Below, one piece after another: positions 16,157 through 45,983 of a stretch of DNA of 64,000 nt; the first letter of the stretch is position 1; each line of letters begins with the position of its first letter. The notes under the pieces are model-generated. The model did no database searches, was not told where the DNA came from, and saw only the letters and a list, made by a program, of their open reading frames with translations. A program made the translations under genes and the position numbers. The stretch is from Neobacillus thermocopriae (GTDB lineage Bacteria > Bacillota > Bacilli > Bacillales > Cytobacillaceae). The stretch is from NCBI RefSeq assembly GCF_010975035.1, contig NZ_JAAIUV010000020.1, positions 1-64,000 on the forward strand, in the 5' to 3' direction.

Positions 16157-16380
16157 GTGTTAGGTCCTTTCAGGAAAGCGCGCTTAGCCAGTGAATTCCC
16201 GGGTATTTCCACCATACCGGATTTAGCTGTTTCCATCGAACGGTACCATTTCACATTTGGAGAAGAAAACGCTCTTGATTTCACGAATTTACCATTCGAA
16301 ATTCAAATTTAACGCCGATTTTTTTCATTTCGAGAAGATTTGATAGAAAAAGAAGGAGAGAATGAGGTGTTGACAAGCAT

Positions 16381-30531: not shown

Positions 30532-30669
30532 TTACACTTTCATCCGCTCGGGCAGACTCTGTATCGACTGGACCACTAAATCTAGCTTGGCTTCGATCCG
30601 ATAGAGTAGAAAGAGGGTTACCACGATCGGAAATCCGACCTCGCTGATGAGTGGAATCAGTTGATCCAT
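30532..30669 (-). CDS. yvrJ: YvrJ-family small membrane protein
   Basis: A 45-residue protein with one hydrophobic segment (about 11-24, VGFPIVVTLFLLYR) followed by an amphipathic tail (KLDLVVQSIQSLPERMKV), which is the YvrJ pattern. AAAGGAG stands 9 bases before the ATG. A longer open frame on the same strand overlaps it but has no such support. It follows DUF1659 and DUF2922 genes, the usual trio. In B. subtilis, yvrJ lies next to the SigO/RsoA sigma-factor genes. Confidence 0.85.
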   Translation of the reverse strand: MDQLIPLISEVGFPIVVTLFLLYRIEAKLDLVVQSIQSLPERMKV

Positions 30670-30753: not shown

Positions 30754-30975
30754 CTATTCTGCCAATTCATATTCGACTACATTGCGGTCAATTACGCGTG
30801 CGCCTTTTGCTACGGCTAATTTACCGGTAGCCGTAAAGAAAACATCAGATGCAATGATTTGTTCCATGGATTGCTTGACTTGAGCCTCATCAATCGGCTC
30901 TTTCGGGTTTTCTAACGAAATTCGGGCCGTTTTCCCAAACTCTGTGCCGAATTCTAATTCCAATGTTTTTGCCAT
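30754..30975 (-). CDS. DUF2922 family protein
   Basis: A 73-residue protein of the DUF2922 family, recognised from LELEFGTEFGKTARISLENPKEPI and the pattern of a short beta-helix-beta protein. It almost always accompanies DUF1659 and YvrJ genes in bacilli; the role is unknown. A GGAGGTGAATTAA ribosome binding site precedes the ATG. Confidence 0.85.
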   Translation of the reverse strand: MAKTLELEFGTEFGKTARISLENPKEPIDEAQVKQSMEQIIASDVFFTATGKLAVAKGARVIDRNVVEYELAE

Positions 30976-31048: not shown

Positions 31049-31270
31049 TTAAGCAATGATTTCGGAGCTGTCTGTACGCTCCAACGTGTTTAGCGGATCA
31101 TTGCATAAAACGGCAAGTGCGTTTGCTGCTTGGAATAATTGGTCGGCTGATGCTTCTTTACGGACATTGCTAAACGTTTTAGTTCGTAAAATTGGTTTGC
31201 CGTCATCATCGATACCAGTTTGGAATACCATTTTTAGCTTTGTGCCAACTAATAAGGATTGTGCCATCAT
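31049..31270 (-). CDS. DUF1659 family protein
   Basis: A 73-residue DUF1659 protein with LKMVFQTGIDDDGKPILRTKTFSNV and the ALAVLCNDPL helix. The GGAGGTGATGA site precedes two consecutive ATG codons; the first is used here. It leads the trio DUF1659-DUF2922-yvrJ. A CCCTATATAGAGG promoter-like motif stands only 18 bases before the start. Confidence 0.85.
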   Translation of the reverse strand: MMAQSLLVGTKLKMVFQTGIDDDGKPILRTKTFSNVRKEASADQLFQAANALAVLCNDPLNTLERTDSSEIIA

Positions 31271-31287: not shown

Positions 31288-31326
31288 CCTCTATATAGGG
31301 TTTGGGCGACGAAAAGGACAGGGGGG
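31288..31326 (-). promoter_or_regulatory. Promoter-like module 1, shared with 45945-45983
   Basis: On the minus strand it reads CCCCCCTGTCCTTTT, 11 variable bases, then CCCTATATAGAGG. The same two blocks with the same 11-base gap stand before the gene at 45006-45923. The spacing and closeness to the start codon suggest -35 and -10 boxes of an alternative sigma factor. Confidence 0.65.
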
Positions 31327-31675
31327 TGGAAAATTTTTTTTTTATAAAAAATGAAAAAAGGGATATGGCTAGAGAATTTACCTCCAAAACCCCTTAATGG
31401 AGGTACGGGGATCATGCGGGAATTTTCGGTAAGAACGAGTAGAAAAAGGTGGGGTGTTAAAAATCTACTAAGGATTCTATAAACGTAGATTTTTTTCCTT
31501 ACTTAAAGGACGGATGGTTTCACTCTAATATTAATAAAATATCTTTAATTTTCATCTATGTAGATCAAAAAAATGTGATAATTACTTTGGAAACTATTAA
31601 ATTCTCTAATTCTTAAGTAATTAATTCTTCTTCTCGGGATATAATAAGACAGATAGAAAAGCAACTATAAATTTT
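31327..31675. other. Intergenic stretch, possible small RNA at its right end
   Basis: Mostly AT-rich DNA with one small hairpin, CCTCC..GGAGG near 31381-31403. A TATAAT box at 31640-31645 lies about 30 bases before the strong plus-strand terminator at 31676. A transcript of roughly 65 bases is possible, but no good -35 box is visible. Confidence 0.3.
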
Positions 31676-31717
31676 AAGGTGGAAGATAGTCTGTAATTTT
31701 TCTTCCACCTTTTTTTA
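31676..31717 (+). terminator. Strong plus-strand terminator without an obvious gene
   Basis: AAGGTGGAAGA (31676-31686) and TCTTCCACCTT (31701-31711) pair perfectly and are followed by a T-run. No plus-strand gene ends here. Confidence 0.75.
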
Positions 31718-31724
31718 GATATTA

Positions 31725-31750
31725 GCTCTGTTAAATTTGAATGTTGATTT
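31725..31750 (+). repeat. Left inverted repeat of a GNAT-carrying cassette
   Basis: GCTCTGTTAAA-N4-AATGTTGATTT. Its inverted counterpart is at 32484-32509; 22 of 26 positions match and all mismatches are in the four central bases. Confidence 0.65.
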
Positions 31751-31756
31751 TTACAT

Positions 31757-31788
31757 TAAAAAAAGGCCGACTGATTATGTCAGTCTTT
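31757..31788 (-). terminator. Terminator after the GNAT gene
   Basis: GACTGA-CATAA-TCAGTC on the minus strand, followed by GGCC and seven T's. Confidence 0.65.
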
Positions 31789-31807
31789 TCATATGCTTGC
31801 TCTTGTT

Positions 31808-31836
31808 AAACTAACGCCCTTGTTAGTTAAAGAAGA
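31808..31836 (+). repeat. Internal direct repeat, left copy
   Basis: AACTAAC-N6-GTTAGTTNAAGAAGAA, a small hairpin followed by a purine run. A second copy in the same orientation lies at about 32456-32484, so the pair flanks the GNAT gene. Confidence 0.5.
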
Positions 31837-31841
31837 AGTAG

Positions 31842-32387
31842 CTACTTTTTATTCCAATCTTCAGCTAACATTCCATAAACAATATGGTCAACATAATGGT
31901 CATACAACCATTCTGCTTGTCTAATACGTCCTTCGTTTACGAACCCCAGTCTTTCTGGAATAGCCCTACTTTTCTTATTTTCCACGGCAACCCTAATTTC
32001 AACTCGGTTTAGTTTTAATTCATTAAAAGCATAATCAGTCAAAGCCTTAGCTACTTTAGTCATAATTCCTTTACCTTGGTATTTTTCACCAAGCCAGTAA
32101 CCAATGTATGCAAATTTATGTGACCAATTTATCGTGTGATAACCTGAAACTCCAACAATTTCTCCATTAAATAGTATAACTGTATTCAAACTCTTGTTTT
32201 CAGCAAAACCCTTTAAGGATAGTTTTATATAATCTTTCGTATCTTCAATTTTTGTTACAGTATCAAGCCAAGGAAGCCATTCGCGTAGATATTCTCTTGA
32301 ATTATTTGTTAATTCGAAAATCCTTTCCGCATCTTTTAATTCTATTAACTTCAAAGATACTTCCTCATCAATCTTATGTACAAACAT
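31842..32387 (-). CDS. GNAT N-acetyltransferase, RimL/YdaF type
   Basis: A 181-residue GNAT acetyltransferase. The acetyl-CoA loop YQGKGIMTKVAKAL (about 108-121) and the following NRVEIRVAVENKKSRAIPERLGF match RimJ/RimL-like enzymes that acetylate ribosomal-protein N-termini; YdaF of B. subtilis is of similar length. I choose the ATG at 32387 with GGGGGTGTG before it; a GTG at 32393 would add two residues. The gene is framed by inverted repeats and by a pair of direct repeats, which suggests it arrived on a small mobile cassette. Confidence 0.87.
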   Translation of the reverse strand: MFVHKIDEEVSLKLIELKDAERIFELTNNSREYLREWLPWLDTVTKIEDTKDYIKLSLKGFAENKSLNTVILFNGEIVGVSGYHTINWSHKFAYIGYWLGEKYQGKGIMTKVAKALTDYAFNELKLNRVEIRVAVENKKSRAIPERLGFVNEGRIRQAEWLYDHYVDHIVYGMLAEDWNKK

Positions 32388-32455
32388 AATCACACCCCCT
32401 AAATATGGTTTAATTTGTATATTAACACACTTTATTTTAAATGAGTTTTTTATTT

Positions 32456-32484
32456 AACTAACCTTTCCGTTAGTTGAAGAAGAA
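32456..32484 (+). repeat. Internal direct repeat, right copy
   Basis: AACTAAC-CTTTCC-GTTAGTTGAAGAAGAA, matching the left copy except in the loop and one base. It abuts the right inverted repeat. Confidence 0.5.
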
Positions 32485-32509
32485 AATCAACATTATTCTT
32501 TAACAGAGC
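32484..32509 (-). repeat. Right inverted repeat of the GNAT cassette
   Basis: Reverse complement reads GCTCTGTTAAA-GAAT-AATGTTGATTT, the partner of 31725-31750. Confidence 0.65.
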
Positions 32510-32591
32510 CTAGATATTAAGCTTTTTATCAGATTCCATTTTTACCAGCGACTACGTCCCCTATAATATAATCGTACAGACAAGTACGTAA

Positions 32592-32622
32592 TCAAAAAGA
32601 TCACTGATTTTGAAATCAATGC
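32592..32622 (-). terminator. Terminator after the broken secreted-protein gene
   Basis: CATTGATTT-CAA-AATCAGTG on the minus strand, followed by ATCTTTTTG, 15 bases behind the stop. Confidence 0.6.
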
Positions 32623-32636
32623 TCTTTGTTAATAGA

Positions 32637-33207
32637 TTAATTTGGTCTAAATGTAGTAGAAACTCCTGGTAAAACTCGGTATCTACTACCTGATAATGCA
32701 TATGCTGTACCTGATAGATACGCAACTCCACCATTATTTTTGTTCATGGATACGGCACCACTAACAGTTGATCCTAAAGCTCCCATACCACCAACAACCA
32801 CATCTCTCTTAAATCCAGAATAATATCTTAACTTTACAAGACCTGAAAAATGATATGGCCAAGCAGTGGCAGGTTTTACAGACCAATACACAATTCTTCA
32901 TGAATCACCAGCTACAATACTTGCTCGTCCTCCAGGGCCAGTAACTGATGAAAAAGGCATAGTAATATTATCACTACTACTTATTCCATTTTCATTTACA
33001 ACACTATTAGGGTGATTGAAAATAGCATTAGAAATTTCGGAATCATTACCGAAACTTATAACTGTAATTTCATCATCTTTATAAATAACTTTTCCTGTTT
33101 GAGATAATCTTTCTAGTTCTTGATTATCTTGCTCATTAGCAAATGCTGGAGTAACTAATACAAGTGAAAAAAGCATAAAAAATTATTGTGAAAATAAATT
33201 TTTTCAT
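32637..33207 (-). pseudogene. Secreted protein gene with frameshift and premature TGA
   Basis: An ATG at 33207 behind GGGGG starts a signal peptide (MKKFIFTIIF). One base in the following T-run is missing, because the hydrophobic core and cleavage site (LFSLVLVTPAFANEQ) continue in the next frame. That frame then meets TGA at 32898-32900 after IVAGDS, and the same frame continues at once with RIVYWSVKPATAWPYHF to a stop at 32637. A single G-to-A change in a TGG codon would explain the stop. The intact product would be a secreted protein of about 188 residues with a Gly/Ser/Val-rich C-terminus. No family recognised. Confidence 0.75.
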
Positions 33208-33280
33208 AAACCCCCTCTATTTTCTATATTTTACATTTTTATTATATAATAACATAAAATGGAAGGAGGGGTAATTTATT

Positions 33281-33598
33281 TTGGAGAAAAATAATCATTA
33301 TAAAAATCTATTAGAAAGACTTTGTAAAGCTAATAATATTTCCCCTCGAAGGCTTAGATTTGAACAAATTGAAGATTTTGTAATTATTTATGTAAAAAAT
33401 CAATTAAAAGAAGGAGTAGATTTAGAATGCTTTAAAATCTTAAATCTAATCCATCAAACTGTTTCACCTTTAGGAATACGATTCGAGCAGCAATTATACT
33501 TATATCCAGGAGGAGATAGATTAGATAAAGTAGCAATAATGTTTAATAAAGAGGACTACGTACTTTTAAATAAAAAATTAGAAGAAGGAGACATCTAA
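33281..33598 (+). CDS. Hypothetical protein, 105 residues
   Basis: A TTG start behind GGAAGGAGGGG gives a 105-residue soluble protein with alternating helical and beta segments (FVIIYVKNQL, IRFEQQLYLYPGG, DYVLLNKKLEEGD). No family recognised. It is divergent from the broken secreted-protein gene and appears intact. Confidence 0.65.
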   Translation: MEKNNHYKNLLERLCKANNISPRRLRFEQIEDFVIIYVKNQLKEGVDLECFKILNLIHQTVSPLGIRFEQQLYLYPGGDRLDKVAIMFNKEDYVLLNKKLEEGDI

Positions 33599-33643
33599 AA
33601 TTTGCTAAAAAGGGCCAAGGACGCTTTAAAGGTAAACCAAAAT

Positions 33644-33672
33644 GGGCATAGCTTTTTTGCGCAAAAATGCCC
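33644..33672 (+). other. Compact hairpin in the gap after the 105-residue gene
   Basis: GGGCAT and ATGCCC close a hairpin whose inner part TTTTTTGCGCAAAA is itself self-complementary. The flanking sequence to about 33720 is more GC-rich than its surroundings and has no reading frame, which may mark a remnant of a mobile element or a small RNA. Confidence 0.4.
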
Positions 33673-33792
33673 TGTATGGCGTCTGTGAACAAGAGTCGTT
33701 AAAGTGATGATCAATCTATAAATCCGTACCATATTCAAATATGGGAAATTTTTTTTTATAGCCTTAACAAAGAAGAAAAAAGGGGGTTACTC

Positions 33793-34269
33793 ATGAAAAA
33801 TTTCGTTTTCTTGTTGCCTTTTTTATTATTAGTTGCTTGTAGTAATCAAACTCCAACTCTATCGAAAGAAGATGAGATTAGAATTGAACAGGAAACAAAA
33901 CAAGAACTAAAAGAAGCGGAAGAAAAGGCAAAAAAAGAAGTTGAAGAAATGCTATCTTGGCATGATCATGAAAAATATGATTTTATTGCATATCAATCAC
34001 TCAGTAGAACCGAAGAAGAGAGAAACGGAAAATTAGAATACAAATAAACGGGATATGCAGTCGACGCTGAGGTATATGGATGGAAAACATCACCTTTATT
34101 GAGTGAAGAGGATATATCATTTTCATTATGGCGTAGTGATTTGCCAAATACTCCTGAAAAAAGAGATGTTATATTAGTTAAGTTTCCTAAAAATGATCAT
34201 AGTAAATATCTAGATATAATGCTAATATATTCACCTACGGGCGAACCCATCGGTGATTGGGGTTTTTAA
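33793..34269 (+). pseudogene. Lipoprotein gene with an in-frame TAA
   Basis: A signal peptide with lipobox LLLVAC and a GGGGGTTACTC ribosome binding site start the gene. After 84 codons TAA occurs at 34045-34047. The same frame continues directly with TGYAVDAEVYGWKTSPLL and ends YSPTGEPIGDWGF at 34269. The continuation has clear protein-like composition, so the original product was a lipoprotein of about 158 residues with a Glu/Lys-rich coiled-coil segment (about 25-55). Function unknown. Confidence 0.75.
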
Positions 34270-34278
34270 GTTTGTGTT

Positions 34279-34312
34279 CTCAAGTGAGTTTACCGACGAA
34301 TCCTCACTTGAG
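34279..34312 (+). other. Perfect 10-bp hairpin behind the lipoprotein relic
   Basis: CTCAAGTGAG and CTCACTTGAG pair perfectly with a 14-base loop. The T-tail is poor, so termination is uncertain. Confidence 0.55.
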
Positions 34313-34622
34313 ATCGAGTTTGCAGAAGGAAATTAGAAAAATTGTAAATTAATAACTTTTTCTAAAATACAATAAGTAACATTACCTCATTATTTTCACT
34401 CTTTCACAATACAAATCTACTGCGTAACGTTTGTTATTTTGGATAATATGTTCCATTACATAATCCCATTAGCCATATTCCAAGAACCAAAATGATAAAT
34501 GAGATTTATAGAAGGAGGGAAGTTATGTTCTTTGTATATTAATCCTATTTTTTTACAGTACTTAGTGCGTCTTTATGTGGCTCTAACATTTTTATTAGTT
34601 GTTCTTTGTTCATTATTTCTCC
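34313..34622. other. Intergenic stretch with an orphan ribosome binding site
   Basis: AAGGAGGGAAGTT precedes an ATG near 34525, but only five codons follow before a stop. This may be the start of a decayed gene. Nothing else was recognised. Confidence 0.35.
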
Positions 34623-34850
34623 TTATATCTTCAATTCATTTTCAGAATTAAGCATTATTTTTACTATATCTTCATTAGGTGCTTTAAACATCCGCAATAA
34701 TTTAAGTAAATGATCAAATTCCTCTTTATGTGTTGTATTTTTTAATTTGTTTATAAGTGTTTCTTTAGAAACAAAGTAATTCTTTTGCTGTTCTCCTACA
34801 TAGTTTTGGTACTCAAATGAACATGTAAATATATTCATTGCATTACGCAT
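34623..34850 (-). CDS. Hypothetical protein, possibly the end of a truncated gene
   Basis: A 75-residue frame from ATG at 34850 without a visible ribosome binding site. The frame is open about 100 bases further upstream and stays protein-like there (NDDIIVFYDTQHVDM) but offers no start codon before a stop near 34940. This suggests that the real 5' end has been lost, at or near the hairpin at 34893-34932. The protein is acidic and helical (KEEFDHLLKLLRMFKAP). No family recognised. Confidence 0.4.
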   Translation of the reverse strand: MRNAMNIFTCSFEYQNYVGEQQKNYFVSKETLINKLKNTTHKEEFDHLLKLLRMFKAPNEDIVKIMLNSENELKI

Positions 34851-34892
34851 ATCTACATGTTGTGTATCATAGAAAACAATAATATCATCATT

Positions 34893-34932
34893 AAAACAAC
34901 AACAATAACTATAACTGTTTTGTTGTTGTTTT
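34893..34932. repeat. Perfect 12-bp inverted repeat
   Basis: AAAACAACAACA (34893-34904) and TGTTGTTGTTTT (34921-34932) form a perfect stem. It lies where the neighbouring truncated frame loses its 5' end. Confidence 0.55.
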
Positions 34933-35072
34933 ATTTAATATCTTGTTTTCATGTTTTTAATGTTTATATGTTTTATATTGTCGAACAAGCTAGAAGAATA
35001 AAGGCTTTTTTTACTTAAATTATCACCTTTTTTGCGTTAACTATTACTTATTTTGCGGTAGTTATCACTTAG

Positions 35073-35349
35073 ACTAATCAAACGATTGGTTAGATGAAAA
35101 AATATTTTGTGATATTAGAAGAATGGATATTTCGTAACGCAGAAGAGGAACTAATTAAACGATTGATTAAACGACAAAATTTTCCCGTGATGTAGGAAGG
35201 AATGGATCTATCACAACACATATAGAGGAATGAATCAAATGATTGATTAGACGACAAATTTTTTGCCGGGGTGTGCTAGATAGGGAAAGTGAACAAAGCA
35301 AATAGAGGGATTTATTAACCATTAGATTAGATGATAACTTTTTAAAATG
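35073..35349. repeat. Tandem degenerate ~80-bp repeats, array 1
   Basis: Units begin at 35073, 35150, 35230 and 35310 (periods 77, 80 and 80). Each starts with a variant of ATCAAACGATTGATTAGAC followed by GACAAAATTTT and ends with a purine stretch such as AGAGGA. The core ATCAA-N4-TTGAT is a palindrome of the type bound by TetR-family repressors. The same unit occurs again near 40.02 kb, on the other side of the efe operon. Confidence 0.7.
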
Positions 35350-35350
35350 T

Positions 35351-35379
35351 AAAAAATACGGCAGGATTAAGTCCTGCCG
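35351..35379 (-). terminator. Terminator of the efe operon
   Basis: CGGCAGGA and TCCTGCCG form a perfect 8-bp stem followed on the minus strand by TATTTTTT. Confidence 0.8.
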
Positions 35380-35403
35380 GTTGTTGTATGAAGTTGCTTG
35401 TCA

Positions 35404-37140
35404 TTAGGTATTTTTTGCAGCCGATTTTTTAACGAACCAAGTGGTGAAAAGAATGATGACAATGAGCAACAGCTGTGTTAAAAAGGTTTCCCAAGTTGGA
35501 TACATGCCTATCCAATCAATATATGGCAGAGATTGCACAGTGCTTGTAGATAAGATATTGGATATTTGCAGTGCATGGATGCTGACACCGATTATTTTAA
35601 AGGCCAATAAGTAGATGAGAATGGCTGCGGCTTTAAAAAATAGTCGAATCGGAATTTTTACACTGTAATGAATGATTGTAAAGCCGATAATCGCTAGAAT
35701 CCCAATGGCCAAAACTATGCCTAGAGCGAGCTGTTGCAAGCTGATATAGGGAGTAATCCCTGTGTAAAAAATAATCGTTTCTGCCCCTTCACGGAAGACG
35801 GAAAAGAAGCTAATGACTGTAAATGAAAGAAGGCTTCCTTTTGCGATGGCTTGGTGCATCTGCTGCTCAATCAACTTTTTCCAATTTCCGATGTTTGACT
35901 TATTATGAAGCCATGCCCCAATCGTTAGCATCATGATTACAGCAGCCACTCCTGTAAGACCTTCAATATATTCTCGGCTCGAAGCGGCGACGATTTTTGA
36001 AAAAGCCATATTGATAATGATGGCGAGAATTGCGCTCCCTAGAATTCCAGCAGCCACTCCACCCCAAATCCATTTTTGTTTATTGGCATGCCCCATTTTC
36101 TTTAGAAAAGCAATTAAGGTACCGACAATGAGCATGGCCTCTAATCCTTCCCTAAGTAAAATGAGGGAAGCATCCCAAAACGTATAATTCGTTTTAGCTG
36201 TTAACGGAGCGAGTCGAGAGGATAGATCCTGAACGATAGACTCGGCTTTTTGTTGATCGATATTTTTTGAATTTAAGAGACTGATGCTGGCCGGAATATT
36301 GGTTTCTATATCATTGTAGAGTTTGCTGTCTCTCGTTTGTACTTCTCCCTCGACCGTTGGCCATATGGTGAGGATTTCATTTAAATCCGTGCTTGCTTTC
36401 TCATATTCCTTGTTTGCAATTGCTTTTTTTGCTTTATCCAATAAAGTTGCTACATCTGTCAGTGAATAGCTCTCGTTTACGTCCGTTGCTGATTTACCGG
36501 AAAGGAAATTATTTACTTCATTGGTCAGCTGGTCAGTATTTTGCTTGGCTTTTTGAAGGTCTGCTGGTTCTTGTGTAATCGCAATTCGAATTAAGGCCAT
36601 GTATTTTTCGATTTGACCATAAGCAACTATACTCTCATCATGAACTGCTTTTTCCGAAGCTGTCCATTGATTCATGATGGCTTGATAGCGTGATTTTAAA
36701 ACCATGGGATCACCATCAGCGAGTGAGTCCTTTAAACGGTCAATGAGTGGTAGCAGCTGTTTGACTTGTTCTTTTGCTGCATTTTTGTCCACCGGATTTT
36801 GTTCTTGATCATATAAAACGAGCGCCGTTGATAGCGATGAAAGACTTTTGGTGACTGCCTGGCTGTCTGTATTTGGATTGGCTAGAAGTGATTGAACATT
36901 TTTTAGCTCTTGGTTTACCTTTTTGGCGTGTTGGCTGTTCATATCCTTTATGGATTCCCATTCCTGGGAAAATTGTTGCATATTTTTTGCTACGGTATCG
37001 ACATCTCCGGATTTTGCCTTCATTAAACTATCGCCAATCAAGACAAATAGTTCGTCATGGTTTTGTGCGGCAAAACTCGGGACAGCGTTCGGTAAAAGGA
37101 GCATGAAGACCAACAATAGAATTTTCCACGTTTTCATCAT
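35404..37140 (-). CDS. efeU: EfeU/FTR1-family iron permease with fused outer domain
   Basis: A 578-residue protein. A signal peptide (about 1-25) leads to an extracytoplasmic helical domain (about 25-300), followed by a seven-span FTR1 permease domain. Both iron-binding REGLE-type motifs are present (ILLREGLEAMLI and VFREGAETIIFY). It moves ferric iron across the membrane with EfeO and EfeB. The fused outer domain makes it longer than E. coli EfeU; B. subtilis YwbL is also long. Last gene of efeO-efeB-efeU, 19 bases behind efeB. Confidence 0.92.
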   Translation of the reverse strand: MMKTWKILLLVFMLLLPNAVPSFAAQNHDELFVLIGDSLMKAKSGDVDTVAKNMQQFSQEWESIKDMNSQHAKKVNQELKNVQSLLANPNTDSQAVTKSLSSLSTALVLYDQEQNPVDKNAAKEQVKQLLPLIDRLKDSLADGDPMVLKSRYQAIMNQWTASEKAVHDESIVAYGQIEKYMALIRIAITQEPADLQKAKQNTDQLTNEVNNFLSGKSATDVNESYSLTDVATLLDKAKKAIANKEYEKASTDLNEILTIWPTVEGEVQTRDSKLYNDIETNIPASISLLNSKNIDQQKAESIVQDLSSRLAPLTAKTNYTFWDASLILLREGLEAMLIVGTLIAFLKKMGHANKQKWIWGGVAAGILGSAILAIIINMAFSKIVAASSREYIEGLTGVAAVIMMLTIGAWLHNKSNIGNWKKLIEQQMHQAIAKGSLLSFTVISFFSVFREGAETIIFYTGITPYISLQQLALGIVLAIGILAIIGFTIIHYSVKIPIRLFFKAAAILIYLLAFKIIGVSIHALQISNILSTSTVQSLPYIDWIGMYPTWETFLTQLLLIVIILFTTWFVKKSAAKNT

Positions 37141-37159
37141 GGTTCATTTCATCCCCTGA

Positions 37160-38452
37160 CTAGGTGAATAATGTTTCGCCGATAAATCCGCCTGGCTTTG
37201 TGCCGGGAAGACAAGCAAAAATAGCACTACCGCGGTGAGAGATGTACTCATTCAACTTATCCATTTTTGCCAGGCGTTGTTGAATCGGAATAAACTGTTT
37301 GCTTGGCTTACGTTGGAAGCAGATAAATAATAACCCGGCATCGAAGTTCCCTGTTTTTCCATCCATCCCGTTAGAGTAAGAATAGCCTCTACGCAGTATT
37401 TGTTGGGTTCCGTCCCCATGTGCGACCCGCATATGAGAATCTACAGGAATGACATATTCGTCATTCTTGTCTTTTTGTGTAAAATCGGGTAAATCGAATT
37501 CATTATTTTTGCCCAAAGGGGCACCACTGTCACGATAACGTCCGAATGTATTTTCTTGCTCCTTTAAATGGGTTCGGTCCCATACTTCGATGAACATCTG
37601 AATCCGTCTGACGACAAGATAACTGCCGCCTGCTAGCCAGTTAGGACCGTCACCAGGTTGGATCCATACTTGCTCATTCATCACTTTTTCGTTATTGACA
37701 TCGGGATTCACTGTTCCATCCTTAAAACCAAACAAGTTTCTTGGCGTTTTTTCCTTGGGATCGGCCTGTTTGGTTCGCTGAAATCCAGGTTGTGCCCAAC
37801 GTAAAATGGCTTTGCCGCGTGCAATCCGAATCAGGTTTCTTACGGCATGAAAGACGACTTGCGGATCATCCGCACAGGCTTGGATACACAAGTCTCCTCC
37901 TGACCACTCTTCTTCCAATGCATCCAAAGGAAACTTAGGGAGATCAACTAATTCTTTTGGCTGTTTCCCTAATAATCCAAAACGGTCCACTCCATCTTTA
38001 ACGAAGAGGCTGGGGCCGACACCAAAGGTAATCGTTAATTGAGAAGGGGAAAGGCCGGCTGCCTCTCCGGTATCTTTCGGTGGTAGGAGTCCATTGCTAG
38101 ACAGTTCACCAACCGGCTTTCCTTCTGTCATTAAGGCAGCAGCTTTCGTCCAGTCCTTAAATAGCTGGATTAATGCTGTTTTGTCTGTTGCCGTGACATC
38201 TAGTGCGGCAAAATAGATATGATCTTGCGGCTTGGTTGTAATACCGCTTTGATGTTTTCCATAGAAAGGGATGATGTTATCCGGTTTCGAACTAGACGCT
38301 TTGTTTTCCGTGATGGAAAGCAATCCGCCAAAGCCGGAAGCCCCAATTAGGACACCAATTCCGCCAACCCCTGCTGTTTTTAACATCTCACGTCGGGTAA
38401 ACGTTCTGGAGGATATAGGTGAATTTTCTAACTGCGGATTAGTCTTAGCCAT
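37160..38452 (-). CDS. efeB: EfeB, Tat-exported Dyp-type haem peroxidase
   Basis: A 430-residue peroxidase of the DyP family, equivalent to YwbN of B. subtilis. The N-terminus carries a twin-arginine signal (TRREMLKTAG) before a hydrophobic stretch, so it is exported folded with its haem. The GFKDG motif typical of DyP enzymes (NLFGFKDGTVNP) and the HGDGTQQILRRGYSY region are present. EfeB oxidises ferrous iron for EfeU or extracts iron from haem. The ATG directly follows the efeO stop, with GGAGGCGGAATAA serving as both gene end and ribosome binding site. Confidence 0.94.
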   Translation of the reverse strand: MAKTNPQLENSPISSRTFTRREMLKTAGVGGIGVLIGASGFGGLLSITENKASSSKPDNIIPFYGKHQSGITTKPQDHIYFAALDVTATDKTALIQLFKDWTKAAALMTEGKPVGELSSNGLLPPKDTGEAAGLSPSQLTITFGVGPSLFVKDGVDRFGLLGKQPKELVDLPKFPLDALEEEWSGGDLCIQACADDPQVVFHAVRNLIRIARGKAILRWAQPGFQRTKQADPKEKTPRNLFGFKDGTVNPDVNNEKVMNEQVWIQPGDGPNWLAGGSYLVVRRIQMFIEVWDRTHLKEQENTFGRYRDSGAPLGKNNEFDLPDFTQKDKNDEYVIPVDSHMRVAHGDGTQQILRRGYSYSNGMDGKTGNFDAGLLFICFQRKPSKQFIPIQQRLAKMDKLNEYISHRGSAIFACLPGTKPGGFIGETLFT

Positions 38453-39301
38453 TTATTCCGCCTCCGTTATTTTGCCTAATTGCGAAAGTGGCTCTGCAAG
38501 AGCATCAATAGCCTGGCTTAACGCTTTTACCTCTTCTTGGGACAAATCGGTGTAAAGTTTATAGCCATCGTCTTGTTTGTGTGAATCTAATAGACGATAT
38601 ACTTCATCAAAGCGAGATTGTATTTCCTTTGAAAGTTCTTGATCTTTCTTTTTTAGTTCTGGTTTTAATAGTTGAAAAATCTTTTCTGCTCCTTCGACAT
38701 TGGCTGCGAAATCGTATAAATCGGTATGGGAATATCGGTCTTCTTCTCCTGTTACCTTGGAGGTGGAGACTTCATTTAATAAGTCAACGGCACCAGTGAT
38801 CAATAAATCGGGCGTTACTTCTACAGTTTCTACCTTAGCCCTAAGAAGATTGACATCCTTCATTAGCTGCTCCGCATAAGACTCGTAGCCTTTTGTGGTT
38901 TTTTCTTCCCATAATCCTTTTTCAATGCGGTGATAACCACCCCATTCAGTGTCTGGAACATCCCCATCACGGGCATCAATTTTTGGATCAAGTTCGCCAA
39001 ATATTTCAGCGATCGGTTCAGCTCGTTCATAATGCATTCTTGCAGGCGCATATAGCGCTTTTGCTTGCTCTATGTCGCCGTTTTTTACGGCATTGGTAAA
39101 TGCCTCTGTCTTTTTGATAAATTCCTCCATCTCTCCAATGGCATATTCGCGGTATTGGTTCGTTACACCTTTAAGGGAATCGGTTACTGTTTGGCTTGTT
39201 TCCTTTTTTTCGGCTTTGGAGGCGGTTTGCTCGGATTGAGAACACCCGAATAATAAACTACTTGAGAATAATAGAATGCCAGATAGTTTTGCCCATTTCA
39301 T
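38453..39301 (-). CDS. efeO: EfeO, iron-binding lipoprotein (M75/imelysin fold)
   Basis: From the ATG at 39301 (AGGAGG eleven bases before) the protein has 282 residues; an upstream in-frame ATG at 39343 lies inside the Fur box and has no ribosome binding site. Lipobox LLFGC follows the signal peptide. The M75 domain has the metal-site HRIEKGLW. The cupredoxin domain seen in E. coli EfeO is absent, as in YwbM. It captures iron outside the membrane for EfeU. First gene of the operon. Confidence 0.92.
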   Translation of the reverse strand: MKWAKLSGILLFSSSLLFGCSQSEQTASKAEKKETSQTVTDSLKGVTNQYREYAIGEMEEFIKKTEAFTNAVKNGDIEQAKALYAPARMHYERAEPIAEIFGELDPKIDARDGDVPDTEWGGYHRIEKGLWEEKTTKGYESYAEQLMKDVNLLRAKVETVEVTPDLLITGAVDLLNEVSTSKVTGEEDRYSHTDLYDFAANVEGAEKIFQLLKPELKKKDQELSKEIQSRFDEVYRLLDSHKQDDGYKLYTDLSQEEVKALSQAIDALAEPLSQLGKITEAE

Positions 39302-39327
39302 AGGTAGAGGAACCTCCTGTTTAATAA

Positions 39328-39342
39328 TGATAATCATTTTCA
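39328..39342. promoter_or_regulatory. Fur box upstream of efeO
   Basis: TGATAATCATTTTCA matches the 7-1-7 Fur consensus TGATAATNATTATCA at all but one defined position. It lies 27 bases before efeO, so iron should repress the operon. Confidence 0.85.
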
Positions 39343-39345
39343 ATC

Positions 39346-39710
39346 AATATTATTTTATGTTAAATGAGAAATGTTTTCAATTATTTTTTATAGGATTGTA
39401 CGGGAGGTTATTGGTTGGTTCGGTGATGTTAGAAACTTGCATGAAGGCGCCATACATAAAAAGTTTCTCGATAATATAATTAGAAGGAGAAAGACAAAAG
39501 AAAAGGGGTGGTCGTTGAGACCAACCCCGGGTATAAAGAGTTGTAGGAACCTGCTGTTGTTGATAAGAAAGGAATCGATCGCCTAGTGGAGGATTTAAAC
39601 ATGTCATGATATCCCTTGCAGCATGGCAATCTACATGCAGTTATTAAAAATAAAAAATATAGAAAAAGGGGCTAGGATTATGGGGATGCCGCCCCTTATT
39701 CTTTCTTTTA
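39346..39710. other. Intergenic stretch with two minus-strand terminators
   Basis: A hairpin GGGGTTGGTC/GACCACCCC with a T-rich tail on the minus strand lies at about 39495-39528. Another, AAGGGGC..GCCCCTT with TTTTTC, lies at 39663-39699 directly behind the 55-residue gene. No gene with a ribosome binding site was found between them. Confidence 0.5.
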
Positions 39711-39878
39711 TTACATAGCTTGTTTCATTTGTTTATGATCCATGCCCATTTTTTCTAGTTGGACTTGTAATTGGGCTAAATCAGATGCGTCTCTTTCTTT
39801 CAATCTATCAAAAATAACTATAGTTGTATAAATGCATGTTAGAAATAAACTAATTGTCATTAACCAAGCAAGAAACAT
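39711..39878 (-). CDS. Small membrane protein, 55 residues
   Basis: The ATG at 39878 follows GGGGGAAATGAA; a longer in-frame start at 39932 lacks a ribosome binding site. One hydrophobic segment (about 3-22) is followed by a charged amphipathic tail with a Met/Lys/Gln-rich end (KMGMDHKQMKQAM). A terminator follows. Function unknown. Confidence 0.6.
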   Translation of the reverse strand: MFLAWLMTISLFLTCIYTTIVIFDRLKERDASDLAQLQVQLEKMGMDHKQMKQAM

Positions 39879-40019
39879 TTCATTTCCCCCTTTTGTATCG
39901 GTTAAGTACATAGTAAAAAATTTTCCACTCACCTAAAGTGACATAAATCACAAAAAACAGGGAGAATTTTTGTCATTTTTGTGAAGTTTAATAGGATTGG
40001 AAAGTGATTAAGGAGAGCG

Positions 40020-40190
40020 ACTCATCAAACGATTGATTAATTGACAAAATTTTTATGTCTTTGCTTGAAAAAATGTTTCTATTACAGTGTTTTTCAAGTG
40101 TTCCATCAAACGATTAATGAATTGACCATTTTCGCATGTACTCTTTCAACAAACGTTTGGAATAGATAGAATTCATCAATCGTTTCATTG
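40020..40190. repeat. Tandem degenerate ~80-bp repeats, array 2
   Basis: The core ATCAAACGATTGATTAATTGAC starts at 40022 and recurs as ATCAAACGATTAATGAATTGACC at 40103 (period 81). More degenerate and inverted versions follow (ACAAACGTTTGG near 40150, ATCAATCGTTTCATTGAT near 40175). It shares the core and period with the array at 35073-35349. Confidence 0.6.
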
Positions 40191-40304
40191 ATTCATTCCG
40201 GTTTCATCACTAGAGAAGAAAATATGTTAAACAGACAGGGATTTGGGGTTGTTTTTGGTAGGATGAAAAATTATTCCGTTTTTGTCTAATATATACATTT
40301 TTAC

Positions 40305-40331
40305 TATACTCTCCTTGTTTTTATCCGATAA
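40305..40331 (+). promoter_or_regulatory. Possible SigD-type promoter for the chemoreceptor
   Basis: TATA, 15 bases, then TCCGATAA resembles the SigD consensus TAAA-N15-GCCGATAT (three of four and six of eight). Chemoreceptor genes of bacilli are usually SigD-controlled. Confidence 0.45.
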
Positions 40332-40366
40332 AGTAATAGGATTATCAATTTAGGAGAGAGGTTAAG

Positions 40367-42436
40367 ATGGAAACACAACAGGAACAACACCGTCAAAGAA
40401 AAGGTCTATCCATTCGGGTGAAATGGATTTTTTTCATTTGTTTAGCCATTTTAATATCCAGTGGTGCAACGGTGATCTTTAACCATTTTACAATTAGTAA
40501 GATTTTAAAACAGGATCATGCGGAATCTAGTCAAACGAATGCGCATCATGCGGCTGAAGAAGTGCGGCTTTCGCTTGAGAAGTATGAGACATCTATTAAC
40601 TATTTTGCTAGCATTGTCTCAAATGATGTTCAAGATGGGAATTTTATTCAACGTATGGAAGCGTCTATTAAAAACATTCAAAAGGAAAATAAGGATCTTA
40701 TTGCCGTTTATTATATGGATTTTACTACAGGAAAAATTCATATTTCTCCCTATACGGAATACGATGTCGATGTACGCGATACGAGAACGTATAAACAATT
40801 GAGTGAGAATCCGAAGACGCAATGGATGGATGTGTATCAGGACAAACAAACGAAAAAAATGATGACATCCATTGTAACGCCGGTTTTTACCAATGGAGAA
40901 ATGGTCGGGGCACTCGGTTATGATATTGATTTGTCAGCTATTGGAGTCATCAGGGAGCAGATTGAGAAGAAGACGAATGCTGAGCTTGTGATTTTGGATG
41001 CGACAGGTATTATTGTTAGTTCCTTTATAGAAGGTGCGGATGGGAAAAATATGAACCCAGCACAAAGTGGTGCTGTTGAAGGGGTAGCAGATTTACTAAC
41101 AGATAAGAATCAGTTTGATTCTGATTTCCAATGGGTGACTGATATTTATAAAAGTGATAAAGCGAGAAAACAAAATTGGTCATGGAATGGCGAGAAATAT
41201 ACAGGGGAAATCGTGACGATTCCTGGCGTCCATTGGAAAGTATTATCCTTTACCCCTGACGATATTTTTGCTAGTAAGATGAATCACTTTACCAAAACGG
41301 GCATTTGGTCCCTTCTTTTAGGTATTGCCATTGGTGTCATTTGTGCGATTGTTCTCGCGGAAAAACTAAGAAAGATTATTGCTCATTTCCAAAAAGTAAT
41401 TGAAAAAACAGCAGAAGGGGACTTGGTGACAGAATTCAAAGTCCATTCGAAGGATGAAGTCGAAGAGTTGGCGAAAAGTTACAATAAGATGCTAGCTCAG
41501 ATGAGAAGATTAATCATGACAGTTGTGGATAATGTCTCATCTATTCATCATTCCACGAAGGAATTAACCACCATTGCTAGTGAACATAGTACCGCTATAT
41601 CCGAAGTTTCCACATCGGTGGATTATATTGCGAAAGGAATTGGAAATCAGGCAATGGAAGTAGAAAAAGGATCGAAGGCTGTTCATGATTTAAGTGGATC
41701 CATTGAGGAACTTTCCAAACAGTCAGCGAATATTGAACATGAGGTTGGAGAGGCTTCACAAGAAATGCAGATTGGAAATGAACAAGTGAAAAACTTGGAA
41801 GATTCCTATCAAAAATTAGAGAGTGCTTTTCAAAAAGTAACCGATCGGATTGCCCAATTAAATGAAAAATCGAAATCGATCTCTGAAGTGACTAAAGTCA
41901 TTGCTGGAATAGCCGAGCAGACCAATTTGCTTTCCTTAAATGCCTCTATAGAAGCGGCAAGAGCGGGAGAACATGGTAAAGGGTTTGCGGTTGTTGCTAA
42001 TGAAGTTCGGAAGCTGGCAGATGAGTCTAAAAAAGCAACGAATGATATTCAAGCGATTATTCATAGTGTACGAACGGATACAAAACAGCTAGTGGAAGTC
42101 ATGGAAGAAACGAATCGAATTAGTATGGATCAAAAGAATGCTGTGTCAACAGTCACTTCTTCTATCAAGCAAATGAATGCTTCATTGGAAAAAATGCTTG
42201 AATCGGTCAAAGAAGAGGTAGAAACGATCCAATCGATCCAAGGGCAAAAAAGTATTGTTGTCGGTATGATTGAAGAAATCTCGGTCGTTTCTCAGCAGAC
42301 CACGGCTTCAACCGAAGAAATTGCTGCAGCTATGGAAGAACAATCTGTCACTACCAATGAAGTAGCGATCCATGCGAAGCAGCTTTCCCAATTGGTAGAT
42401 GAATTGAACGAAGCTGTTGAAAAATTTACCGTGTAG
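40367..42436 (+). CDS. Methyl-accepting chemotaxis protein with Cache sensor domain
   Basis: A 689-residue receptor. First membrane span about 21-43, extracytoplasmic double-Cache-like sensor domain about 48-300, second span about 308-328, HAMP about 330-385 and signalling domain about 400-689. The strongly conserved tip ([20 protein letters not shown] then [16 protein letters not shown]) binds CheA/CheW. The ligand is unknown; Cache domains often bind amino or carboxylic acids. The ATG follows AGGAGAGAGG. It is an isolated gene with its own promoter candidate and terminator. Confidence 0.94.
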
Positions 42437-42626
42437 AAATGGAGTAGAGAAATGTTCATCTCATATGACAAAAACTGATTTATTTCTTGGGGAATAATGG
42501 TTGAAATTGTCGAGAGGGAATATTTCAATTTGTGTCCTTAATACTTTAAAGAAAAGAGTTTAAAAGGGCAAGAATGTACAAAGAATCAGGATTTGATCAT
42601 TTGGGTCATTATGGGTTTCATTTAAT

Positions 42627-42676
42627 AAAAAAGGGACATCTAGAAGTCGGATCTTAATTTCTAGATGTCCCTTTTT
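42627..42676. terminator. Bidirectional terminator between chemoreceptor and nitroreductase
   Basis: AAAAAGGGACATCTAGAA and TTCTAGATGTCCCTTTTT form a perfect 18-bp stem between convergent genes. Confidence 0.9.
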
Positions 42677-42724
42677 CTGTTTCCCATCATTTTTCCTTTT
42701 TGGGCTCCATGCCTGTCAATCTTA

Positions 42725-43360
42725 TTAAATGAATTCAATGACATCCTTGACTGGTATGCGGGTAGTTTTATGCCCAGGAGCAGCTGCTTTTCCAATGGCA
42801 ATTAATACGATAGGCATGTATCGGTCCGATACGTTGAATTTTTCCATAAACTTTTGTTTATCAAATCCACCCATTGTAACGGTGTCATAGCCTTTTGCTT
42901 TTGCCAATAGCATAATGAGCATAGACACCAAGCCTGTATCAAAGGAAGCAATATTCTTTCGGACTTCCTCGGATGCATTAGGATATACATTGTTTATATT
43001 GTTGATGAGCTGTTGCATAGTAGATTCGTTCATATAGCCGGCTTCATAAGCACTTTGATACACCTTATCGGCATTTTTATACATTTCTTTGTCTCCTAAA
43101 ACCGCAATAACGGCTGAACAAGTTTCCACTTGTTCTTGATTGTAGGCAATCGAACGAAGTTCTTTTTTTATTTCTTGATTATCGATAACCATAAAGCGCC
43201 AAGGCTGAAGATTGCTTGAAGAAGGCGCAAGGATGGCTTCGCTTAAAATTTCTTCGATTTCCTCACGAGTCATTTGATAATTAGGGTCATATTTGCGGAC
43301 AGAGCGACGTTCTCTGATAATATCAATTAAATTTTGTGAATTTGTCGTCACTGTTGACAT
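42725..43360 (-). CDS. FMN-dependent nitroreductase family protein, YodC-like
   Basis: A 211-residue nitroreductase with the FMN-binding N-terminus RRSVRKYDPNYQMTREEIEE and ILAPSSSNLQPWRF. The C-terminal MPIVLIAIGKAA is typical. It reduces quinones or nitro compounds with NAD(P)H. The ATG follows AAGGAGGAACTTTTAC. Two YodB-like operators lie just upstream, matching the control of yodC in B. subtilis by the quinone/diamide sensor YodB, so a role in electrophile stress is likely. Confidence 0.9.
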   Translation of the reverse strand: MSTVTTNSQNLIDIIRERRSVRKYDPNYQMTREEIEEILSEAILAPSSSNLQPWRFMVIDNQEIKKELRSIAYNQEQVETCSAVIAVLGDKEMYKNADKVYQSAYEAGYMNESTMQQLINNINNVYPNASEEVRKNIASFDTGLVSMLIMLLAKAKGYDTVTMGGFDKQKFMEKFNVSDRYMPIVLIAIGKAAAPGHKTTRIPVKDVIEFI

Positions 43361-43387
43361 GTAAAAGTTCCTCCTTAAAAGCTTTTC

Positions 43388-43427
43388 TTACAAATAGTAA
43401 GTGTAAAATAAAAATTACTATTCGTAA
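43388..43427 (-). promoter_or_regulatory. Pair of YodB-like operators
   Basis: TTACAAATAGTAA (43388-43400), which reads TTACTATTTGTAA on the minus strand, and TTACTATTCGTAA (43415-43427) are inverted relative to each other and match at 12 of 13 positions, with centres 27 bases apart. They resemble the YodB box TACTATTTGTAAGTA as I recall it. No yodB-like regulator gene lies in the window. Confidence 0.65.
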
Positions 43428-43771
43428 CTGCTAGAGTCAAGGAAAAGGCTCTAATGGCATGAATGGATCCTTTTTGGAACATGAGATAAAAAAATCAGAC
43501 AGTTGAATGTACTTGGAAAAAAACGTTAGGTAAGGGACAGTGCTTAAAACGGAATGATGAATTTGTTAATAGCAGTCTTTTTTGTTTCCAGTTTTTAATG
43601 ATGGGAAAAGGTTTTTTGTACCATCATGATGCTAATCCAAAATCCCAGGCATCCTCTTTTAACATGAAGGAGTTCGTTTTTTTCTTTTGCTCTGCCTTTT
43701 TCCTGCTTAATGGATAAGTTCAAAATCAATGGGGGATACTGAATGACAGTAGTATGAACGAGGTATAGGAC
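43428..43771. other. Divergent intergenic stretch
   Basis: Apart from a small imperfect hairpin near 43432-43455, I see no gene or RNA. It should hold the promoter of the plus-strand membrane protein gene. Confidence 0.4.
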
Positions 43772-44536
43772 ATGACACAATTTCCCAACCAACGTAGGCA
43801 AAGAGCATTTTTATCTCAATTTTCCATTACACAATTGCATTTAAAAAATCCTTGGGTGGTTGCGTTTTTTTCGTTTTCCTATCCAGGGTTTGGCCATTTA
43901 ATGCAGCATCGATATGTCGTTGCGATCATTTTGATCTTATGGGAAACGTTTATCAATCGGATGGCAAATGTGAACCTTGGCATCTTGTATACCCTATTGG
44001 GTGAATTTGATAAAGCTAAAGAAGTTTTAAATGAACGATGGTTAATCTTGTACGTGGCCATTTATATGTTTGGTATATGGGATGGTTATCGTTCAACCAT
44101 TGATCAAAACAAACAATATGTATTGGCCGATCGAGAGGATGCCACCATGCCTACAATTACCATGGGTTCATGGGATATGAACTATTTGGATAAAAAGAAA
44201 CCATGGGTAGCCTTAGTATGGTCTGCTTTATTTCCTGGGCTCGGACACCTCTATCTTCATAACGTCATATTTGGCTTTTTTATTTTTATCTATACCGTTG
44301 GAATTTGTTATTTAGGTAATATTCTTCTTGGTATTGAGTATTCCATGTGGGGTGATTTTGTCAAAGCGAAAGAGGTCCTTAACATGCAATGGGTGCTCTA
44401 CTTCCCTTCCATTTACCTTTTTATCATTTTTGATTCGTATGTGACAGCGGTGGAGCAAAATAAACTGTTTGAAAAAGAAATGTCTCATTATTTGCGTAAA
44501 AAATATCAAAATCCACGCTTTAAAACTCCCATTTAA
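43772..44536 (+). CDS. Internally duplicated membrane protein
   Basis: A 254-residue protein built from two similar halves. Each half has PWV(A/V)..(S/A)..(F/Y)PG(F/L)GHL, two to three hydrophobic segments, the soluble signature G(E/D)F.KAKEVLN..W, and D.Y...(I/V)(D/E)QNK. The halves span about 26-125 and 143-240. GHL next to PG is reminiscent of TM2-like small membrane modules. Function unknown. It may form an operon with the next gene, 17 bases downstream. Confidence 0.7.
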   Translation: MTQFPNQRRQRAFLSQFSITQLHLKNPWVVAFFSFSYPGFGHLMQHRYVVAIILILWETFINRMANVNLGILYTLLGEFDKAKEVLNERWLILYVAIYMFGIWDGYRSTIDQNKQYVLADREDATMPTITMGSWDMNYLDKKKPWVALVWSALFPGLGHLYLHNVIFGFFIFIYTVGICYLGNILLGIEYSMWGDFVKAKEVLNMQWVLYFPSIYLFIIFDSYVTAVEQNKLFEKEMSHYLRKKYQNPRFKTPI

Positions 44537-44553
44537 AAAGGAGGGAGAATGCC

Positions 44554-45009
44554 ATGTTTGTGATCGCTACCTTTGAAAACTCACTTTTCATTGAAATGGC
44601 CATTTCAGAATTGGAGAAATGTGATATTTCCAACGAGCAAATCTTGGCCGCCCCACTTGATAAAAGAACGGAACCAAGGCAGCTTTTTGATACGATCCAT
44701 CGAGCAGATGGATTAAGCTTGTTTGACGTATCTGCCATTCTTGGTACTTGCTTTATGTTGTTAGGTGCCATCTATGGCTATGTATTAGAATGGGGCCCCA
44801 TTATATGGGGAATTATTGGGGCCGTCAGCGGCATACTCCTCGGATTCCTCCTAAAAATGATTCTTGTCAAGAAAAATAGGAGGGGAGTGAAAAAAATGAC
44901 ATCCGAAATTGTCCTTATGATTCGTTGTGAGAAAGACCAATGGAAAAAGGTTGAATCGATACTTTGGGAACATGGTGCTTTAGGCATCTCCCATATCAAA
45001 CATCTTTAA
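44554..45009 (+). CDS. Hypothetical membrane protein, 151 residues
   Basis: A soluble N-terminal part (about 1-55, alternating beta and helix: MFVIATFENSLFIEMAI) is followed by two hydrophobic segments rich in glycine (about 58-105) and a C-terminal domain similar in outline to the N-terminal one (SEIVLMIRCEKDQWKKVESI). The layout resembles stress-related membrane proteins with two ferredoxin-like halves, but no family is assigned. AAAGGAGGGAGAATGCC precedes the ATG. Its 3' end overlaps the convergent gene by 4 bases. Confidence 0.65.
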   Translation: MFVIATFENSLFIEMAISELEKCDISNEQILAAPLDKRTEPRQLFDTIHRADGLSLFDVSAILGTCFMLLGAIYGYVLEWGPIIWGIIGAVSGILLGFLLKMILVKKNRRGVKKMTSEIVLMIRCEKDQWKKVESILWEHGALGISHIKHL

Positions 45010-45923
45010 TAGGAGAAAGAAAGCAAGGATTTTATCTCAAAATGATCAGGTTCTAACATTCTATGATCCCAGTCTAGAATCTTTTCTAATGGCGGGATTT
45101 TTCTGTATATAACGCTATCTTCTTCTGTATCACCATGCAGGTCCTCTAAATCTTGATAGAACTGGACTCGGAGTTTTTTGAAAATAATGCCATAAAAGTA
45201 AGCGAACGGATTTTTGACCGATTGGGTATATTTTAGCTTCCTAATGAGCTGCCGGAATGCCTGGATGGCGGTTTCTAGAATTCGTTCTGGGTTCTCTTCA
45301 CACAAGTTTCTATAGGCTGCGATTTCTGCCATTTTCCAAAATTCCTCAATCGTTTTAGCTTCTGGAAAAAAGCATTTTACTATTTGCACGAATGGTTGAG
45401 GCACACGGTCGCTGACATAGGTGTCATCTAGTACCGTTCTGTTTTCCACTTGGTTCGATTGTTTTGGCGTTTCTTTACGTGATTTTTGGTTATTGGTTTT
45501 TAAAAGATTAATGGTTTCTTTATGGTGGTTCAATTTTTCCTCTTTAGGTAGTTCATTTGGAGGAAAACGATTAAAAACATAGAGATTGCTGGTTTGCGCC
45601 CCATTTTTTCGCTCGGTTTCATACACGGATAAGATTCCAAGTTTGATGGATTTTTGGATCATTCGTTTAAAAGTAGAGCGGGAAATCCCATGGTTGTTGA
45701 ATTCTTCGTGAATTGCCTTTAACATTGTACCGATTTTGGCATTTGCCACCCCTGGAACTTTAGCGGCAAAACGAGCTAGACGTTTGATTCCGATCAATTC
45801 CCCTTTGGAAAATTTCTGCTTGTGTTCTAACATCCACCACTCGAAATGAGTGTTAAACTCTTTCAGAGAAGTAAACTGCGAATATCCTTCAAATTGTGTA
45901 ATTTCGCCAGATTTTATAGGCAT
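45006..45923 (-). CDS. Winged-helix, replication-initiator-like protein of unknown role
   Basis: A 305-residue soluble protein. Residues about 60-135 look like a winged helix-turn-helix (ISRSTFKRMIQKSIKLGILS, then ERKNGAQTSNLYVFNRFP), as in plasmid and phage replication or primosome-loader proteins. The middle (about 135-175) is a charged linker. The C-terminal half is helical (EEFWKMAEIAAYRNLCE, ILETAIQAFRQLIRKLK, NPFAYFYGIIFKKLR), reminiscent of DnaD-like or primosomal domains. Its upstream region carries the same promoter-like module as the DUF1659 operon, so it is probably co-regulated with it. It may be a domesticated mobile-element gene. Confidence 0.55.
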   Translation of the reverse strand: MPIKSGEITQFEGYSQFTSLKEFNTHFEWWMLEHKQKFSKGELIGIKRLARFAAKVPGVANAKIGTMLKAIHEEFNNHGISRSTFKRMIQKSIKLGILSVYETERKNGAQTSNLYVFNRFPPNELPKEEKLNHHKETINLLKTNNQKSRKETPKQSNQVENRTVLDDTYVSDRVPQPFVQIVKCFFPEAKTIEEFWKMAEIAAYRNLCEENPERILETAIQAFRQLIRKLKYTQSVKNPFAYFYGIIFKKLRVQFYQDLEDLHGDTEEDSVIYRKIPPLEKILDWDHRMLEPDHFEIKSLLSFSY

Positions 45924-45944
45924 AACATGGCACCACCCTTTCGA

Positions 45945-45983
45945 CCTCTATATAGGGAAAACAAGGACAAAAGGTCAGGGGGG
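45945..45983 (-). promoter_or_regulatory. Promoter-like module 2, shared with 31288-31326
   Basis: On the minus strand CCCCCCTGACCTTTT, 11 bases, CCCTATATAGAGG. Both blocks and the 11-base gap are the same as at 31288-31326, with one base difference in the blocks. It ends 22 bases before the start codon. Confidence 0.65.

Follow-up and report, generated by a model that had tools for sequence, protein, structure and literature searches.

A recurring two-block module and a small SigS-like sigma factor in Neobacillus thermocopriae

Two modules and the genes they precede

We analysed a 64,000-nucleotide (nt) stretch of the 3.2-Mb genome of Neobacillus thermocopriae (contig NZ_JAAIUV010000020.1), hereafter the window, in which the same two-block module occurs before two genes and in which a small orphan sigma factor is encoded beside a ComK paralogue (Table 1). 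An earlier note, made from the sequence alone, had described both copies of the module and proposed either that an alternative sigma factor reads them as its -35/-10 boxes or that they serve a dedicated activator. Both copies were found where it placed them, with 0 mismatches, and both lie just upstream of start codons: the ATG is 17 nt (31270) and 21 nt (45923) past the end of the block, with a Shine-Dalgarno sequence in between at both genes. The gap from TGTCCT (or TGACCT) to TATATA is 17 bp at both sites, and this spacing is ideal for the candidate -35 and -10 boxes. Allowing at most 3 mismatches, we obtained 0 matches in 100 shuffles of the window. It is very probable that the module is a promoter used by a small, specialised sigma factor whose gene lies in the window too.

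The first module precedes a trio of small genes whose assignment to the DUF1659, DUF2922 and YvrJ families is clear for all three. The match of the DUF1659 protein to the SroA model NF049869 is weak (E 0.0078; 16.2 bits, where the cut-off is 80). Its structure model has a mean predicted local distance difference test score (pLDDT) of 53.8 and was not used. The second module precedes a gene for a 305-amino acid (aa) protein of a phage helix-turn-helix (HTH) family, here called HTH305. The earlier description of it as a winged-helix protein is borne out by the model of residues ~8-117, which are predicted to form a winged helix (pLDDT mostly 77-88); beyond them the model is of low confidence. 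Foldseek with this model gave no match at E<=0.001 (best 1.1e-2), so the structure is not diagnostic; the DnaD N-domain ranks 23 and replication terminator protein 26, 29, 33 and 36. A search for solved relatives of HTH305 and of the DUF1659 protein found none, the single match being at E 0.14.

Table 1. Features of the window and putative targets of the module in the own genome
Feature	Position	Strand	Match or content
Probable promoter module before DUF1659-DUF2922-YvrJ operon	31288..31326	-	-35 TGTCCTTTT, -10 CCCTATATAGAGG
Probable promoter module before 305-aa HTH gene	45945..45983	-	same two-block pattern
DUF1659 protein, SroA-like	31049..31270	-	PF07872 2e-26
DUF2922 protein, second gene, SroB position	30754..30975	-	PF11148 1.2e-23
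YvrJ-family small protein	30532..30669	-	PF12841 8e-15; phrog_4898 holin 2.8e-8
HTH305, 305-aa winged-helix protein of phage HTH family	45006..45923	-	phrog_1835 'HTH DNA binding protein' 9e-36
Orphan SigS-like sigma factor, proposed module reader	15677..16156	-	PF04542 9.3e-13, PF04545 7.1e-7
Divergent second ComK paralogue beside sigma gene	14743..15213	-	PF06338 4.2e-32
Conserved element before sigma gene	16157..16241	-	contains the four boxes below
TTCG box before sigma gene	16233-16241	-	
TATGGT and CCCGGGAAT block before sigma gene	16195-16216	-	
Palindrome before sigma gene	16176-16185	-	AAGCGCGCTT
Shine-Dalgarno of sigma gene	16163-16173	-	
Putative regulon target	31270, window	-	DUF1659-DUF2922-YvrJ
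Putative regulon target	45923, window	-	305-aa HTH gene
Putative regulon target	contig C23		HTH305 paralogue
Putative regulon target	contig C31		second DUF1659-DUF2922 pair
Putative regulon target	contig C12		DnaD-domain protein, then DnaB-type helicase
Putative regulon target	contig C32		Phg_2220_C replisome-organiser protein, helicase-loader-like protein, DnaB helicase
Putative regulon target	contig C1		amidase with SPOR domain

Recurrence of the module and the genes that follow it

The module recurs in the own genome, and the result that the earlier note named as a refutation, a lack of further copies, was thus not obtained. A search for both blocks with at most 3 mismatches gave 7 matches, versus 0 for the reversed pattern used as control, and six of the seven precede genes of a recurring set. 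The seventh, on contig C51, has no recognised gene downstream and was set aside as chance. A looser pattern, which served only to pick up this one site, adds a credible copy upstream of an amidase gene on C1. The seven credible copies thus precede two DUF1659-DUF2922 operons, two HTH paralogues, two initiator/helicase operons and one amidase. Read by eye, the flanks of the C12 and C32 copies are not phage structural genes, so both look like lone replication operons.

Across 186 genomes of the same family we identified 429 module sites, against 91 for the reversed control; 160 genomes have at least one site, and 71 a control match. We read 98 sites (8 own-genome loci, 30 supplied loci, and 60 chosen from among the matches listed, which held no sites from the window's own genus) and classified each by whichever recognised gene came first in the next 350 nt. 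Recurring gene families follow 67 of them: HTH305 (25), DUF1659 (20), Phg_2220-like (10), DnaD-like (9), amidase (2) and YvrJ (1). At all 67 the module points in the direction of the gene, within 350 nt and often at ~25 nt. A further amidase target was found in genome G151. At locus L277 (G065) a module with 2 mismatches lies before an ORF (open reading frame) that appears by eye to end in a LysM-like wall-binding repeat, and the regulon may therefore include wall hydrolases of a second type.

The sigma factor as probable reader, and its rivals

The earlier note had put forward the orphan sigma factor of the window as a candidate reader of the module. Regions 2 and 4 are indeed present in one ORF, with a TTG start, and gene order and co-occurrence now suggest that it is the best candidate. 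It scores 112.7 bits against the NCBIfam equivalog NF005248 (PRK06759), below the 133-bit cut-off, and relatives occur in nearly all of the 186 family genomes. Among the matches listed, 12 pairs in 11 genomes consist of a sigma match and, 16-46 bases past its end, a module, and wherever such a locus was read the module leads into DUF1659. We also examined 79 sigma loci from Neobacillus, Cytobacillus, Mesobacillus, Rossellomorea and others, seeking neighbours in the fetched flanks: DUF1659 is present in 13, HTH305 in 9 and ComK in 30. Five of these loci encode HTH305, sigma, DUF1659, DUF2922 and YvrJ in a row, and in three of the five a module (at most 2 mismatches) precedes DUF1659.

Co-occurrence points the same way, in tests that were not corrected for phylogeny. 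DUF1659 is above cut-off in 110 of 200 genomes of the class. In 49 of the 200 the sigma factor is matched at E<=1e-12, and 48 of these 49 carry DUF1659; the one that does not, G186, has its sigma match at 1.4e-20. A matrix trained on family sites before HTH305, DnaD and Phg_2220 genes only, with DUF1659 sites excluded, was applied to 77 DUF1659 upstream regions from outside the family. Scores of z>3 were obtained for 21 of 37 regions from genomes with the sigma factor (E<=1e-12), versus 3 of 40 from genomes without it (p=2.7e-6). Two of these three high-scoring loci are from staphylococcus-like genomes (family f17), and in one of the two, G248, the E value of the sigma match lies just above the threshold.

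Taken together, the spacing of the boxes, their recurrence, the recurring targets and the shared occurrence with a single family of sigma factors argue for the boxes of an alternative sigma factor. We consider it highly probable that the module is a promoter read by RNA polymerase carrying the window's sigma factor, a relative of staphylococcal SigS.

Several results weigh against this assignment. Nothing recognised follows 31 of the 98 read sites, and several of these lie inside other genes; the looser pattern, taken over all its matches in the own genome, does not exceed its control (77 versus 81). Among class genomes without a sigma match at E<=1e-12, 66 carry DUF1659 and 85 do not. Outside the family, 16 of the 37 DUF1659 loci from genomes with the sigma factor fall short of z>3, among them three with strong sigma matches (G237, G361, G380). 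Genomes more closely related to the window's family do better on both sides of the co-occurrence tests. Seven family genomes were without a clear sigma factor in a first scan. Two of them (G007, G185) have no module site either, G143 has two sites with nothing recognised downstream of either, and G170 has a DUF1659 site together with part of a sigma gene where a contig ends. The other three are exceptions, in which no sigma factor was found: regulon genes follow module sites in G107 (280 contigs) and G151 (490 contigs), and an amidase-like ORF follows the one site in G027. The gene may have been missed there, since these are drafts of 220-490 contigs. Finally, the region upstream of the sigma gene in the window has poor ComK boxes, with 2 mismatches at best.

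The two or three draft genomes that have sites and no detected sigma factor also leave some room, though not much, for the other half of the earlier proposal, a dedicated activator. On this view it would occupy the -35 block and recruit ordinary SigA polymerase to TATATA, a weak -10 box similar to that of SigA. We consider this unlikely: the sigma gene lies directly upstream of the module in the 11 genomes noted above among the matches listed, and conservation extends beyond TATATA into AGAGGTGAAAGG, although this stretch is partly Shine-Dalgarno. No activator gene was found that tracks the sites, and none was sought systematically.

A SigO-RsoA-like two-part sigma factor, or another resident sigma factor, is a considerably weaker candidate for the reader. 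The earlier note had pointed to SigO/RsoA on account of yvrJ. Part of that hint stood: in three subtilis-type genomes yvrJ lies beside ORFs that we take, by position, to be SigO (3/3) and RsoA (in two). The rest did not. We recognised no split pair among the sigma hits of the own genome, using PF04542 and PF04545, which may miss RsoA; the three subtilis-type genomes with yvrJ have no DUF1659, and no TGTCC block at module spacing occurs upstream of their yvrJ genes (L384-L386). The best match to the window's sigma factor in these genomes is at 3e-9, in a 255-aa frame. A region-4-only protein on C51, considered as a possible SigO, reads by eye as a GerE-type regulator and was rejected.

The relevant passages of one study make yvrJ a target of SigO-RsoA (YvrI-YvrHa) in B. 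subtilis (PMC8103513), and a YvrJ-family gene is among the genes associated in sequence with the module. Against the window-sigma profile, SigO and RsoA give weak matches (E 1.8e-4 and 0.14). The subtilis-type yvrJ upstream regions share a TATATA-like block; the version in L386, CCTATATAGAAG, nearly equals the module's -10, and this hints at common ancestry with SigO-RsoA. However, SigO-RsoA is split into two proteins and drives oxdC, whereas the window's sigma factor is a single ORF, and we regard SigO-RsoA as at most a distant relative.

A mobile or repeated element (a recombination or integration site), as opposed to a promoter, is a very improbable reading of the module: several target genes are from phage families, but the 67 classified sites are gene-directed and close to their genes, the spacer is little conserved, and the C12 and C32 replication operons have non-phage flanks by eye.

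ComK, staphylococcal SigS and a possible programme

Two published systems resemble parts of the proposed one. The relevant passages of one S. aureus study report that SigS directly activates the sroAB operon and that SroA/SroB-type proteins feed back on SigS (PMC13192611); those of a 2008 study report that SigS transcribes its own gene, and state that the gene following sigS shows no recognisable homology (PMC2585143). The likeness lies in a small sigma factor with regions 2 and 4 and in an operon of an SroA-type DUF1659 gene and a DUF2922 gene. In four f17 loci the proteins at the DUF1659 position all match the SroA model, three of them above cut-off, and DUF2922 is next; the label SroA-type rests on this NCBIfam model. 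The window-sigma profile has matches in 11 f17 genomes (E 4e-9 to 3e-23), and sigma homology at the five loci L417-L421 is 1.4e-9 to 8.7e-19; no match at 1e-8 was found in G283 and G294, two f17 genomes with DUF1659. The gene directly after the f17 sigma gene encodes a divergent protein of the ComK family, above the Pfam cut-off at all four loci considered (L417-L421 less L419), so that these SroA-type genomes too have a ComK-family gene at the sigma locus. The systems differ in that the sequence similarity of the f17 and window sigma factors is distant, and the intergenic gap described in the relevant passages on S. aureus sigS differs from that before the f17 ComK-family gene.

The second precedent is from B. 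cereus. According to the passages concerned, overexpression of ComK2 raises expression of BC5251, a neighbouring sigma gene, more than 1000-fold, while ComK1 and B. subtilis ComK raise it only about two-fold (PMC3128618). The window likewise has a second ComK beside its sigma gene, overlooked in the earlier note; the gene orientation differs. The ComK2-BC5251 passages give no promoter code or sigma regulon. Of the two comK genes in the own genome, the better-scoring copy lies elsewhere (C2:23403-23852) and the weaker one adjoins the sigma gene. Upstream of the sigma gene in 50 relatives, sites resembling the ComK box (AAAAN5TTTT) number 122 at no more than 1 mismatch, versus 19.8 in mononucleotide shuffles, and they peak near -55 and -105 from the leader.

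The leader itself is conserved. We compared 126 distinct sigma upstream regions (window 16157-16216, minus strand; L095-L124, L215-L244, L305-L383 and L417-L421). A CC-NN-GGAA block precedes the start codon in 112 of the 126, and after it comes a perfect palindrome whose centre lies 21-25 nt upstream of the start in 107 of the 126. Palindromes of 8 nt or longer occur in 102 (9.7% in shuffles), and 55 have one that reaches 10 nt or more (2.1% in shuffles). The 33 distinct palindromes of at least 8 nt vary in sequence by species, and self-complementarity, including the centre, is kept. The palindrome is possibly the site of a dimeric regulator or a place of RNA pairing. An RNA structure was tried and rejected: Rfam gave no match, RNAalifold no pair, and single folds did no better than shuffles (z -0.88 to +1.02); the hairpin idea is kept because of the palindrome statistics only. 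No module (at most 2 mismatches) lies directly before the sigma gene in the 79 loci. In L083, L084, L266, L270, L319 and L352 the sigma gene is downstream of a module and HTH305 on the same strand, so read-through into it is possible. Elsewhere in the window, at 2868-3168 (+), there are two Rfam group II intron matches (RF02001 and RF01998).

From these observations we propose the following chain. The neighbouring ComK paralogue, together with some stress signal, would turn on the sigma gene. The sigma factor would bind TGTCCTTTT as the -35 and CTATATA as the -10, and would transcribe the dispersed SroA/SroB-like DUF1659-DUF2922(-YvrJ) operons, the genes of winged-helix and DnaD-type replication initiators along with the DnaB-type helicases that belong to them, and an amidase gene for the cell wall. 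With these operons of initiator and helicase, DNA synthesis could begin independently of oriC, and the amidase and the holin-like YvrJ would act on the envelope.

A wider reading, which we offer as speculative and rather improbable, is that the ComK paralogue and the SigS-like sigma factor run a chromosomal programme built of parts that once belonged to phages, of which staphylococcal SigS-SroAB is a reduced descendant. Its parts would be spare replication initiators, each kind supplied with a helicase, together with a wall amidase and a peptide resembling a holin. Within a subpopulation under stress they would bring about extra DNA synthesis away from oriC and opening of the wall, for DNA amplification, exchange or release.

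Among open-licence papers in PubMed Central we found six in which DUF1659, DUF2922 or YvrJ occur, none of them by title in this context, and nothing further on a ComK-sigma link, a sigma-replication link or sroAB. The promoter code, the regulon of replication and wall genes, and the linkage to the sigma factor and ComK appear to be new; the regulon would be larger than in the known SigS case, and its ComK link is absent from the literature searched. The module provides a promoter code that can be read for a family of sigma factors with hardly any known targets, and joins two published observations, ComK2-sigma in B. cereus and SigS-sroAB in S. aureus, into one testable chain. Relatives of Neobacillus thermocopriae appear to apply the same code to replication-initiation and wall-hydrolase genes, and the purpose of SigS and of the second ComK becomes directly testable in harmless Bacillaceae.

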